The notes below the pieces were generated by a model. The model did no database searches and was not told where the DNA came from. It was given only the letters and a program-made list of their open reading frames with translations. The translations under genes and the position numbers were made by a program. Of a DNA stretch of 49,038 bases, positions 9,465 through 15,745 are shown one piece after another. Source of the DNA: an uncultured Mycoplasma sp. GTDB lineage: Bacteria > Bacillota_I > Bacilli_A > RF39 > UBA660. Location of the stretch: positions 1 through 49,038 of the forward strand of contig CAMNSE010000009.1 of the NCBI GenBank assembly GCA_946554525.1, written 5' to 3'. The number at the start of each line of letters is the position of its first letter. Within the stretch, counting starts at the first letter, position 1.

Positions 9465-10286
9465 ATGATAGAAGAAAAAAGATATTTAAGAGATGATGTC
9501 GCAGGAATAATATTTACAGATGAATCCCTACATGAATATATAGAAAAGATAGTAAGTAAAGCCCTAGATATAGATATTGAATTGGTAAGAAATAATTTAG
9601 TACTTAAAAGCCCTAGAATAAATGCAAATATAACAGTAAAAAATAGTATAGTAGATGCTATATATGAAATAGAAGAAGGAATGATAAATATAGAGATAAA
9701 CTATTGTTATTCTAAAGGTGTTAAAGCCAAAAATATGCGCTATATATGTCAGTTAGTATTAAATCAAATACCAAAGAAAGCAAAAGATAAATTAAAACCA
9801 ATATACCAGATAAATATAAATAGTTTTGATATATTTAAAAGAGGAAGATTTATATATCGAAGTGTAATGATGGAAGAGAGCATACATGAAGTAAGAGATA
9901 ATTTTATAACGATAGTAGACATAGATGTAGATTTTTTAAGTAAAATAGATTATACTAAGATAAAAGAGGAGGAATCCGATAGTTTAGAAAAACTTTTGTA
10001 TATCTTTGTATGTGATAATAAAGAAAGATTAGATGAAGTATATATCGGGGATAAGATTATGGATAAAGTAAGAGAAAAAATAAGTTGTCTAACAGATGAT
10101 TTTGCAGAAGGGCTATACTATGATAGAGAAGAGTTAATGAAAGAGGCGGCAAAAGAGATGGTAGAAGAAGAGAAAGCATTGGAGATTGCTAAAAATTTAC
10201 TTAATATGGATATGAATATAGAAGATATAGCTAAGGCAACCGGCTTAACTACTATAGAGATCAAAAGATTACAAAAGGAAGATTAA
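9465..10286 (+). CDS. Rpn-family PD-(D/E)XK nuclease (PDDEXK_2, transposase-like)
   Basis: The Rpn / PDDEXK_2 family comprises DNA endonucleases first labelled transposases; several promote RecA-independent recombination or act in phage defence. This 273-residue member starts IEEKRYLRDDVAGIIFTDESLHEYI and has the core VDAIYEIEEGMINIEINYCYS, giving an Asp...Glu-x-Asn motif where Gln or Lys usually follows the Glu. The C-terminus has the usual Glu-rich helix and a small helix-turn-helix (NIEDIAKATGLTTIEIKRLQ). Codons end in A (ATA, GTA, AGA) more than in neighbouring core genes. Its ribosome binding site is buried in a hairpin. It pairs with the surface protein as an inserted island. Confidence 0.75.
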   Translation: MIEEKRYLRDDVAGIIFTDESLHEYIEKIVSKALDIDIELVRNNLVLKSPRINANITVKNSIVDAIYEIEEGMINIEINYCYSKGVKAKNMRYICQLVLNQIPKKAKDKLKPIYQININSFDIFKRGRFIYRSVMMEESIHEVRDNFITIVDIDVDFLSKIDYTKIKEEESDSLEKLLYIFVCDNKERLDEVYIGDKIMDKVREKISCLTDDFAEGLYYDREELMKEAAKEMVEEEKALEIAKNLLNMDMNIEDIAKATGLTTIEIKRLQKED

Positions 10287-10367: not shown

Positions 10368-10394
10368 TTGACTCGGGGGGGGGTATGCTATTAT
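10368..10394 (+). promoter_or_regulatory. Promoter with a G9 tract in its spacer (candidate phase-variable switch)
   Basis: TTGACT (10368-10373) is followed by C and nine G (10375-10383), then TATGC and TATTAT (10389-10394). TG at 10386-10387 makes an extended -10. The spacer is 15 bp at G9; G11 would give the optimal 17 bp. Nine G in such AT-rich DNA is striking, and the same TTGACTC-poly-G element ends the window at 49024. The Neisseria porA promoter is a known case of poly-G spacer variation. Confidence 0.75.
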
Positions 10395-10423
10395 TTTCTT
10401 ATAAAAGATAAGGAGATAATTGT

Positions 10424-11923
10424 ATGGAGAAGAAAAAGAATATAAAACTATTAATAATAGGATTACTTGCAGTAGTAGCATTCTCATTTGGAATAAGTTA
10501 TGCCTACTTTGTAAGTAGAATTACTAAAGAAGGAGAAGGAAGCAATGTAGGTGGTTCAACTGCAACAAAACAAGATACAGTAGTAAGTACTACAGGATCT
10601 ATTGGATTTACCGACACCAATATCTATCCAGGACATAAGAATATATCAAAGATTGTAGTAACAGCAACAGGAGATAGTCACGTACTATATAACTTAGTAT
10701 GGAATGGGACTAATACACTAAATACAACTATAAACTATAAAGTATATAAAACACCAGAAGAAGAGACACCCACAATAACATGTACAAAAAAAGAGAGAGG
10801 AACAATAAGAAAAGAGTTATATGAAGAATGTACAGAAAACTTAACTAATTTAGGCGAAGTAATAAAAAGCGGAGAAATAAAATCAAGTGGGTCAAATACA
10901 AAAGTAAAACTAGTAAAGAATGAAGAGATAGATGCAACAAACAACGGGGTAAAAGTATATTATTATATAGTGCTAGAATATCCAAATAAAGAAGATAGTC
11001 AAAACCTAGATATGAATGGAACATGTACAGGCAATATCAATATAGAGTTGTTAGAATATAGAGAAAATGCTGCAACAGATTTAATAGCAAAGAATGAAAT
11101 GATTCATGAAACATTTACAAATGATAGTGGAGAATTAATAGATACAGGATATAGATATGAAGGAGCAAATCCAAAAAACTATGTAAGATTTAATAATGAA
11201 TTATGGAGAATAATCGGAGTATTTGATACATTAAATGCGGATACAAACGAGACTGAAAGTTTAGTAAAACTAATAAAAGACGAATCTATTGGATATGTAA
11301 AATGGGATACAGAAGGAAGCAAAGGATCAAATGATTGGAGCAACTCAGATATCAAAACAATATTAAATGGACAATATTATAATGGAGAAGACATAAATTA
11401 TATGTATAAGAATTCAAGTTATGGGGCACTTTCAATAACAGGAAAGAGTTTAAATGAGATAGGCAGAAATATGGTTCAAAATATAGTATGGAATTTAGGA
11501 GGAGCAAGTTCATCTTCATTAACGACATCGGCATTGTATATAGCAGAGCGAGGAACAACAGGAGCAGGAGCAAATCCCACTTTAACAAACTGGTCAGGAT
11601 ATGTAGGATTGATGTATCCAAGCGATTTTGGCTATGCAGTAGATAGTATAAGTTGTTCAAGAGCAACAAGCCTACATAGCTATTATCACACTTCTTGCAC
11701 AGCCAACAATTGGTTATATAATACTTCCTCTAAATCTCAATGGCTGTTAGGAGCATATTCATATAATAATTATGATGTATTTGGAGTTTGTGATTTTGGT
11801 TCCGAGTGTAATAATTCGACATTTGGCTTGCGCCCCTCTTTATACCTTAAATCAAATGTATCTATAGTAGATAATGGTAATGATGGATCTATTGATCATC
11901 CATATGATTTGGTTTTGAGTTGA
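10424..11923 (+). CDS. Secreted/surface protein with C-terminal DUF6273-like domain
   Basis: The N-terminus has Lys residues then a hydrophobic segment (about 8-28, LLIIGLLAVVAFSFGISYAYF), like the signal anchors of TasA/camelysin-type proteins. A beta-rich middle (about 40-210) contains Cys-bearing insertions and is followed by a DUF6273-like domain (about 235-499): NYVRFNNELWRIIGVFD, several Trp-containing blocks, and the end GLRPSLYLKSN...DHPYDLVLS. There is no LPXTG motif. AAGGAG at 10410-10415 gives good spacing to the ATG. It is a paralogue of the fragment at 2-304 and is driven by the poly-G promoter. It has its own terminator. Function is unknown; a variable surface antigen or adhesin is the natural guess. 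Confidence 0.82.
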   Translation: MEKKKNIKLLIIGLLAVVAFSFGISYAYFVSRITKEGEGSNVGGSTATKQDTVVSTTGSIGFTDTNIYPGHKNISKIVVTATGDSHVLYNLVWNGTNTLNTTINYKVYKTPEEETPTITCTKKERGTIRKELYEECTENLTNLGEVIKSGEIKSSGSNTKVKLVKNEEIDATNNGVKVYYYIVLEYPNKEDSQNLDMNGTCTGNINIELLEYRENAATDLIAKNEMIHETFTNDSGELIDTGYRYEGANPKNYVRFNNELWRIIGVFDTLNADTNETESLVKLIKDESIGYVKWDTEGSKGSNDWSNSDIKTILNGQYYNGEDINYMYKNSSYGALSITGKSLNEIGRNMVQNIVWNLGGASSSSLTTSALYIAERGTTGAGANPTLTNWSGYVGLMYPSDFGYAVDSISCSRATSLHSYYHTSCTANNWLYNTSSKSQWLLGAYSYNNYDVFGVCDFGSECNNSTFGLRPSLYLKSNVSIVDNGNDGSIDHPYDLVLS

Positions 11924-11924
11924 T

Positions 11925-11951
11925 AAGAGTTCATAGTTGTGAACTCTTTTT
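11925..11951 (+). terminator. Terminator of the surface-protein gene
   Basis: AAGAGTTCA (11925-11933), loop 11934-11939, TGAACTCTT (11940-11948), T run. Confidence 0.85.
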
Positions 11952-14863: not shown

Positions 14864-15745
14864 ATGAGGAGTGGTTTTGTAAGTTTAATTGGTAGACCAA
14901 ATGTTGGTAAATCTACACTTTTAAATGCAATTATTAATGAAAAAGTAGCTATTACATCAAAAGTTGCTGGTACAACTCGTAATATTATTCAAGGGATTTA
15001 TAATGAACCTGATTATCAAATAGTATTTATGGATACTCCAGGTATTATTAGACCAATGAACAAATTGGGCAAAATAACAAATAAACAAGCAATGAGTTTA
15101 GTAAAAGATATTGATGTGCTCTTATTTGTAGTAGATGCCTCAGCAGGACTTGGACCTGGTGATAAATTTATTATGGAAGTTTTAAAGAAAACGAATGCTC
15201 AAGTCTTTCTAGTACTAAATAAGATTGATAAAATCAGTAAAGAAGATATTTTATATAATATAAATGAATATAAAGACTTATATCCTTTTGCGGAGATTGT
15301 TCCGGTTTCAGCTATATCTCATGATAATGTGAGCCATTTAATTGATGTTATAAAGACTTATTTAAAAGACGATATTAAATATTTTCCTGAAGATGTTACA
15401 ACTAGTAGTAGTGAAAACTTTATGATTAGTGAAATTGTAAGAGAAAAATTATTTGATGTAACATTAGAAGAAATACCTCACAGTATTACTTGCCATACGG
15501 TCTTTTATGAAGAGAAAAAAGATTTGATTGAAACTCATGTAGATATTATTGTTGATCGAGATACTGTTAAAAAAATAGTGATTGGTAAAAAGGGTGAGCG
15601 ATTAAAAGAGATAGGTACAGCATCAAGAAAAGAATTAGAAGATAGATATGGTAAAAAAGTATATTTAGAATTATATGTAAAGACCATTAAAAATTGGAAA
15701 GATAAAGAGCGTTATATTAAAGAGTTTGGCTTTTATGATTTTTAA
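14864..15745 (+). CDS. era: GTPase Era
   Basis: Era is an essential GTPase that binds 16S rRNA and checks 30S assembly. All G motifs are present: GRPNVGKST (G1), TTRN (G2), DTPGI (G3), NKID (G4), SAIS (G5). The C-terminal KH domain has VIGKKGERLKEIGTASR. At 293 residues it has the usual length. GGAGG (14852-14856) precedes the ATG, 9 bases after dgkA. Confidence 0.97.
   Translation: MRSGFVSLIGRPNVGKSTLLNAIINEKVAITSKVAGTTRNIIQGIYNEPDYQIVFMDTPGIIRPMNKLGKITNKQAMSLVKDIDVLLFVVDASAGLGPGDKFIMEVLKKTNAQVFLVLNKIDKISKEDILYNINEYKDLYPFAEIVPVSAISHDNVSHLIDVIKTYLKDDIKYFPEDVTTSSSENFMISEIVREKLFDVTLEEIPHSITCHTVFYEEKKDLIETHVDIIVDRDTVKKIVIGKKGERLKEIGTASRKELEDRYGKKVYLELYVKTIKNWKDKERYIKEFGFYDF

Follow-up and report, generated by a model that had tools for sequence, protein, structure and literature searches.

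A tract of nine guanines lies between the -35 and -10 elements of the promoter of a gene for a membrane-anchored, surface-type protein, and sequence comparison indicates that it is probably the variable part of a slipped-strand, spacing-tuned sigma-70-type promoter of the porA/tp0126 kind. The same architecture recurs throughout the genome and in several other lineages, its tract differs in length between copies, and the genes that it controls are biased to surface products. The repeated occurrence of poly-G promoters before surface genes points to surface variation in these bacteria through stutter in DNA copying. The window, a stretch of 49,038 nucleotides, is the whole of contig C9 in an assembly of 1.13 Mb and 23 contigs; its features, and two sigma-factor genes elsewhere in the genome, are given in Table 1.

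Table 1. Features of the poly-G promoter, the gene that it precedes, and further loci of the class
Feature	Position	Strand	Remarks
-35 hexamer TTGACT	10368..10373	+	hexamer context shared by 18/18 G>=8 tracts in the genome
C	10374	+	single base before G9
15-nt spacer (C, G9, TATGC)	10374..10388	+	spacer length is 14-18 among homologous copies in the genome
G9 homopolymer, proposed variable element	10375..10383	+	other copies in the genome are G7-G10
TATGC, 3' part of spacer	10384..10388	+	
Extended -10 (TGC + TATTAT)	10386..10394	+	hexamer at 10389-10394; TATGCTATTAT common to most copies
Ribosome-binding site AAGGAG	10410..10415	+	before the ATG at 10424
Membrane-anchored surface-type protein, 499 aa, family B	10424..11923	+	homologues in own genome and G002; no Pfam family
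Terminator-like hairpin, then T-rich tail	11925..11948	+	directly 3' of the 499-aa gene
Another promoter of the class, truncated at the contig end	49023..49038	+	TTGACT, CC, G8; continues in C18
Sigma-70-type factors, own contig C15	L166:5628-6962 and L166:2637-5429		consecutive, with a poly-G spacer promoter before each

The order TTGACT-C-G9-TATGC-TATTAT and the coordinates reported in the initial annotation are exact in the sequence, with a spacer of 15, and the accompanying arithmetic, that two extra G residues give a spacer of 17, holds. A weaker alternative -10 element, TATTTT at 10392-10397, overlaps TATTAT and has a spacer of 18. DNA of 27% GC should rarely contain long G runs: 0.18 G7 matches are expected in the window, and two tracts were seen; the window contains only G3-G5 runs and then the two long tracts, with no runs of G6 or G7. 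Markov simulations of 1.13 Mb produced 0 to 2 G/C runs of at least eight at order 1, 0 at order 2, and 1 to 9 at order 3, against 18 in the real genome, and the earlier judgment that a nine-G run is improbable by chance was thereby confirmed. The surface-gene targets alone would also fit an invertible promoter or another site-specific recombination switch, but no inverted repeats bracketing the promoter at 10368-10394 were found. The nearest inverted pairs have imperfect arms of 14 to 20 nt, spaced 270 to 1650 nt apart, as AT-rich DNA predicts, and we consider a recombination switch extremely improbable.

The closest homologues of the 499-aa protein in its own genome are 52 to 73% identical to it. 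Its N-terminal hydrophobic helix spans residues 7 to 27; this helix, together with the enrichment of such segments among targets over background, points to exposure at the surface. The initial annotation had called the protein DUF6273-like, a label that was not supported: no Pfam family matched at E<=0.001, and at E<=1 there was just one irrelevant match of 12 bits. The AlphaFold model is confident only in part, with a mean pLDDT of 52.5 and residues 45 to 210 at about 80; it gave weak beta-sandwich matches in the PDB, which were set aside. The gene is probably a single-gene unit because the terminator-like hairpin follows it immediately. A 273-aa open reading frame (9465-10286) lies upstream, and the downstream neighbors are housekeeping-like reading frames, such as an Era-like GTPase at 14864-15745 (names assigned by eye). 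Judged by these eye-named neighbors, the surface gene may be an inserted cassette.

The initial annotation considered one gene. The promoter stands at that gene, but as a lone site the description was much too small in scope: the genome has 18 G or C runs of at least eight, and all 18 stand behind TTGAC with 1 to 4 bases between. A -10 hexamer, mostly TATGCTATTAT, follows every G>=8 run that is not truncated by a contig end. The 18 runs correspond to 16 loci when the overlapping contig ends C6/C2 and C9/C18 are joined, and there is one additional G7 copy (C4:29245). Spacers range from 14 to 18, with 16 and 17 the commonest. Three further copies have interrupted tracts (C3:88776, C4:72461, and C17:8346), and all three have a spacer of exactly 17, compared with 6 of the 17 intact copies, an outcome with a probability of about 0.04. 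This fits interrupted copies having been frozen at the optimum spacing, although it is suggestive only. The C17 copy precedes an apparent decayed start codon. The C3 copy, TTGACT-TCGGATAGGGGG-TATGC-TATTAT, stands before L309:777-2707, which encodes a repeat protein of 625 aa whose C terminus is of the sortase type (PQTG, a membrane span, and a basic tail).

Most of the targets in the genome belong to two paralogous families, A (MEFETLKKDNRKKW...) and B (MEKKKN..., including the window gene), whose proteins have a membrane helix at the N terminus. Besides these, the promoter precedes genes for a GNAT acetyltransferase, a DltA-like AMP-binding ligase, and the two sigma-70-type factors, of 444 and 930 aa, both with a long C-terminal extension. 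The bias to surface products is evident in the counts, which come from simple hydropathy on mechanically chosen starts and not from curated predictions. Among the matches listed in public genomes, 69 of 94 tract-promoter proteins have an N-terminal hydrophobic segment, versus 79 of 306 other genes at the same loci (P=1.6e-16), and a lipobox-like motif is found in 26/94 versus 13/306. In the window's own genome the hydrophobic segment is present in 10/14 targets and 17/51 others. The concentration in two families with flanks in common is what would be seen if a promoter cassette had been copied along with expanding surface families, the G run being near-inert baggage. We regard this as very unlikely, given that the ligase, the sigma factors, and the acetyltransferase are unrelated and have other flanks, that the genome has no G runs of at least eight elsewhere, and that the promoter recurs with other flanks in other species and phyla.

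The assembly itself carries a trace of the tracts. Four contig joins overlap by exactly 55 nt, typical of a de Bruijn assembler with k=55. The end of C6 and the start of C2 have 46 nt plus G9 in common and diverge exactly where the tract ends. C9 stops at G8, and C18 begins one base later in the same flank and runs through G10, TATGC, and TATTAT into a family A gene. The upstream flanks of both broken tracts are unique in the genome. A break at such a place requires a fork after the G run, as arises when reads differ in tract length. Stutter in PCR or sequencing, instead of a true mixture of lengths, could also have produced the forks at these two loci, so they are counted as indirect evidence. 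In another genome (G018), three contigs likewise end at poly-G tracts.

Promoters of this class are hundreds strong outside the window's genome, and the matches listed are mostly from gut and rumen bacteria. In an unselected set of 296 Bacilli genomes, the pattern was present in five, all from the window's family, with 31 sites versus 0 for the reversed control. Within the genus of the window genome, a slightly looser pattern found at least one site in 11 of 36 members, the genome itself counted. Public genomes yielded at least 115 stretches, in Faecalibacterium, other Clostridia, Bacilli, and Ancillula, and 36 public genomes picked for having a match contained 190 sites versus 0 reversed-pattern controls. 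Single sites in distant phyla (Planctomycetota, Kiritimatiellae, and others) may be due to chance and were left out of the support. Essentially every long G run in some genomes is a promoter spacer: Faecalibacterium An121 has 21 G>=8 runs, all of them in such spacers, and G347 has 31, of which 30 are. Faecalibacterium genomes (An121 [G331, L040 and L125] and others) carry TTGACA-CC-G8/9-TATGN-TATNAT in up to 21 copies, and where a start was found, these promoters mostly precede small lipoproteins beginning MKLKKIAS.AL.AG.MAVSML.GC. Three G8 tracts on one contig (C2, L248) of the genus-mate G013 fall outside the spacer architecture; they have similar flanks, GTCAACYAT-G8-CTTA, and lie 93 to 116 nt before open reading frames. 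Phages were considered as carriers of the promoter and set aside, IMG/VR having given just five matches. MutS is present in the window's genome and in every genus-mate searched; a mismatch-repair defect was accordingly rejected as the cause, and extreme slippage is therefore not expected, a point against the switch.

The comparison of tract lengths in related genomes that had been proposed at the outset revealed variation, in this case between paralogues and species, not strains. Tracts with the same flanks are G9 or G10 in the window's genome. Three tandem homologous genes in G016, with identical promoter flanks, have G9, G10, and G11; the 21 copies of one element in Faecalibacterium An121 are G8 in 14 cases and G9 in 7; and 16 promoters in Ancillula (Bifidobacteriaceae) range from G10 to G14 within nearly constant flanks. 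An orthologous sigma-factor promoter, syntenic and with a conserved upstream region, has G10 in G019 and G14 in G022, and the homologous sigma gene of the window's genome (L166:5628-6962), whose protein is 39 to 40% identical, has G9. Some lineages are tight, with G9 in 28 of 30 tracts of G347 and a spacer of 19 in 8 of 10 in G033, as would be expected of a fixed G-rich spacer that a dedicated regulator recognizes or that reshapes promoter DNA, its length being no switch. Several promoters of the class have spacers of 19 to 21, which we counted against a spacing switch. The near-exclusive use of coding-strand G also favors a fixed spacer: only four C-tract spacers occur in 35 tract-bearing genomes, and this preference for G over C exceeds what spacing alone explains. 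Against it stand the different lengths among copies with the same flanks and among orthologues, and the promoter flanks that differ between species. Moreover, the tract adjoins the -35 element in most copies and the -10 element in others, as in TTGACA-N8/9-G10-12-TATAAT of G011, G019, and G022 and a version with TTGATT in G020. Because the position of the tract varies in this way, there is no common site for a reader of the G spacer, and a fixed spacer of this kind is unlikely.

A different device in the genus-mate G002 also bears on this choice. Four surface genes of that genome (L236, L237, L238, and L239, on contigs C4, C11, C12, and C15) lack the spacer tract of the class. Two of them were compared, and one proved homologous to family A (E=1e-29), the other to the window protein (E=2e-53). 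A conserved leader open reading frame (KNFPTVAExASGGG...) precedes the four genes, with tracts of G10, G10, G10, and G9. Only at G9 does the leader continue for 25 codons to a TGA stop overlapping the ATG of the surface gene; at G8, G10, or G11 the stop falls 61 to 66 nt upstream. The leader tract is thus a candidate phase-variable switch that would act through translational coupling. The same surface families stand behind a different poly-G device, and switching as the purpose therefore gains support, at the expense of a fixed promoter spacer.

The spacer-length switch proposed in the initial annotation is accordingly the reading favored by the genome-wide class, the varying lengths, the interrupted copies at 17, the assembly-graph forks in the tract, and the surface targets. 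We infer from these patterns that the tracts slip in living populations and that transcription responds. Slipped-strand mispairing at replication would add or remove G residues, the altered count would change the spacing between -35 and -10 (15 at the window gene, with an optimum of about 17), and the changed spacing would alter transcription of the membrane-anchored protein. About 16 such promoters would together allow individual cells to differ in the surface proteins that they make, and the two sigma-factor promoters of the class could possibly bring about different regulons.

Most known genomes rich in phase-variable loci are those of pathogens, and whether database bias lies behind this skew is a question raised in a 2025 review (PMC11868660). 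The present class is seen in a commensal-type lineage of uncultured Bacilli and in Faecalibacterium. Sets of slippage-tuned promoters may have arisen repeatedly in host-associated bacteria (the window's Bacilli family, Faecalibacterium, other Clostridia, and Ancillula) and be an overlooked main way in which uncultured commensals diversify their surfaces, and one G may switch a sigma-factor regulon; we hold the chances of this broader proposal to be evenly balanced. If it is true, the G counts in shotgun metagenomes already record which of dozens of surface genes are ON or OFF, selection by immunity or phages on the surfaces of commensals could be read directly, and a phase-variable sigma factor would constitute a control tier above single surface genes.

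Among known systems, the vlp genes of Mycoplasma hyorhinis also have a homopolymer in the promoters of a surface-lipoprotein family, but there it is poly-A, at one locus of few genes. The promoters described here resemble porA, fetA, and tp0126 in structure, with a homopolymer between -35 and -10; in spacing, which lies around 17 (14 to 18 in the window's genome, and G8 to G14 with the same flanks elsewhere); and in product, by the membrane helix and target enrichment from which surface exposure is deduced. In Neisseria, the spacer homopolymers of porA (poly-G) and fetA (poly-C) tune the -35/-10 spacing and expression, and a genome has few such transcriptional loci, N. gonorrhoeae NCCP11945 having three (PMC7864442, PMC5320596); the lineage and genes are unrelated to those described here. 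A search of the literature on Firmicutes, with subscription journals and preprints largely outside it, found no earlier report of spacer poly-G promoters; the initial annotation likewise knew of no described case in spore-forming Bacilli. The closest commensal case is Bifidobacterium breve, a Gram-positive gut bacterium in which G-run slippage governs a surface structure, the sortase-dependent pilus (PMC9187656), although that tract is intragenic and switches the reading frame, whereas the tract here is in the promoter. In Treponema pallidum, tp0126, encoding an OmpW homologue, has poly-G between -35 and -10 and is transcribed best at a spacing of 17 (PMC7864442). It shares with the present promoters the spacer poly-G and a surface protein, but it is described as a single spacer-type locus among differently placed poly-G loci of a spirochaete pathogen, whereas here the spacer is the genome's main use of G runs. 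The element itself is already known; what appears to be new is its genome-wide use in these lineages.
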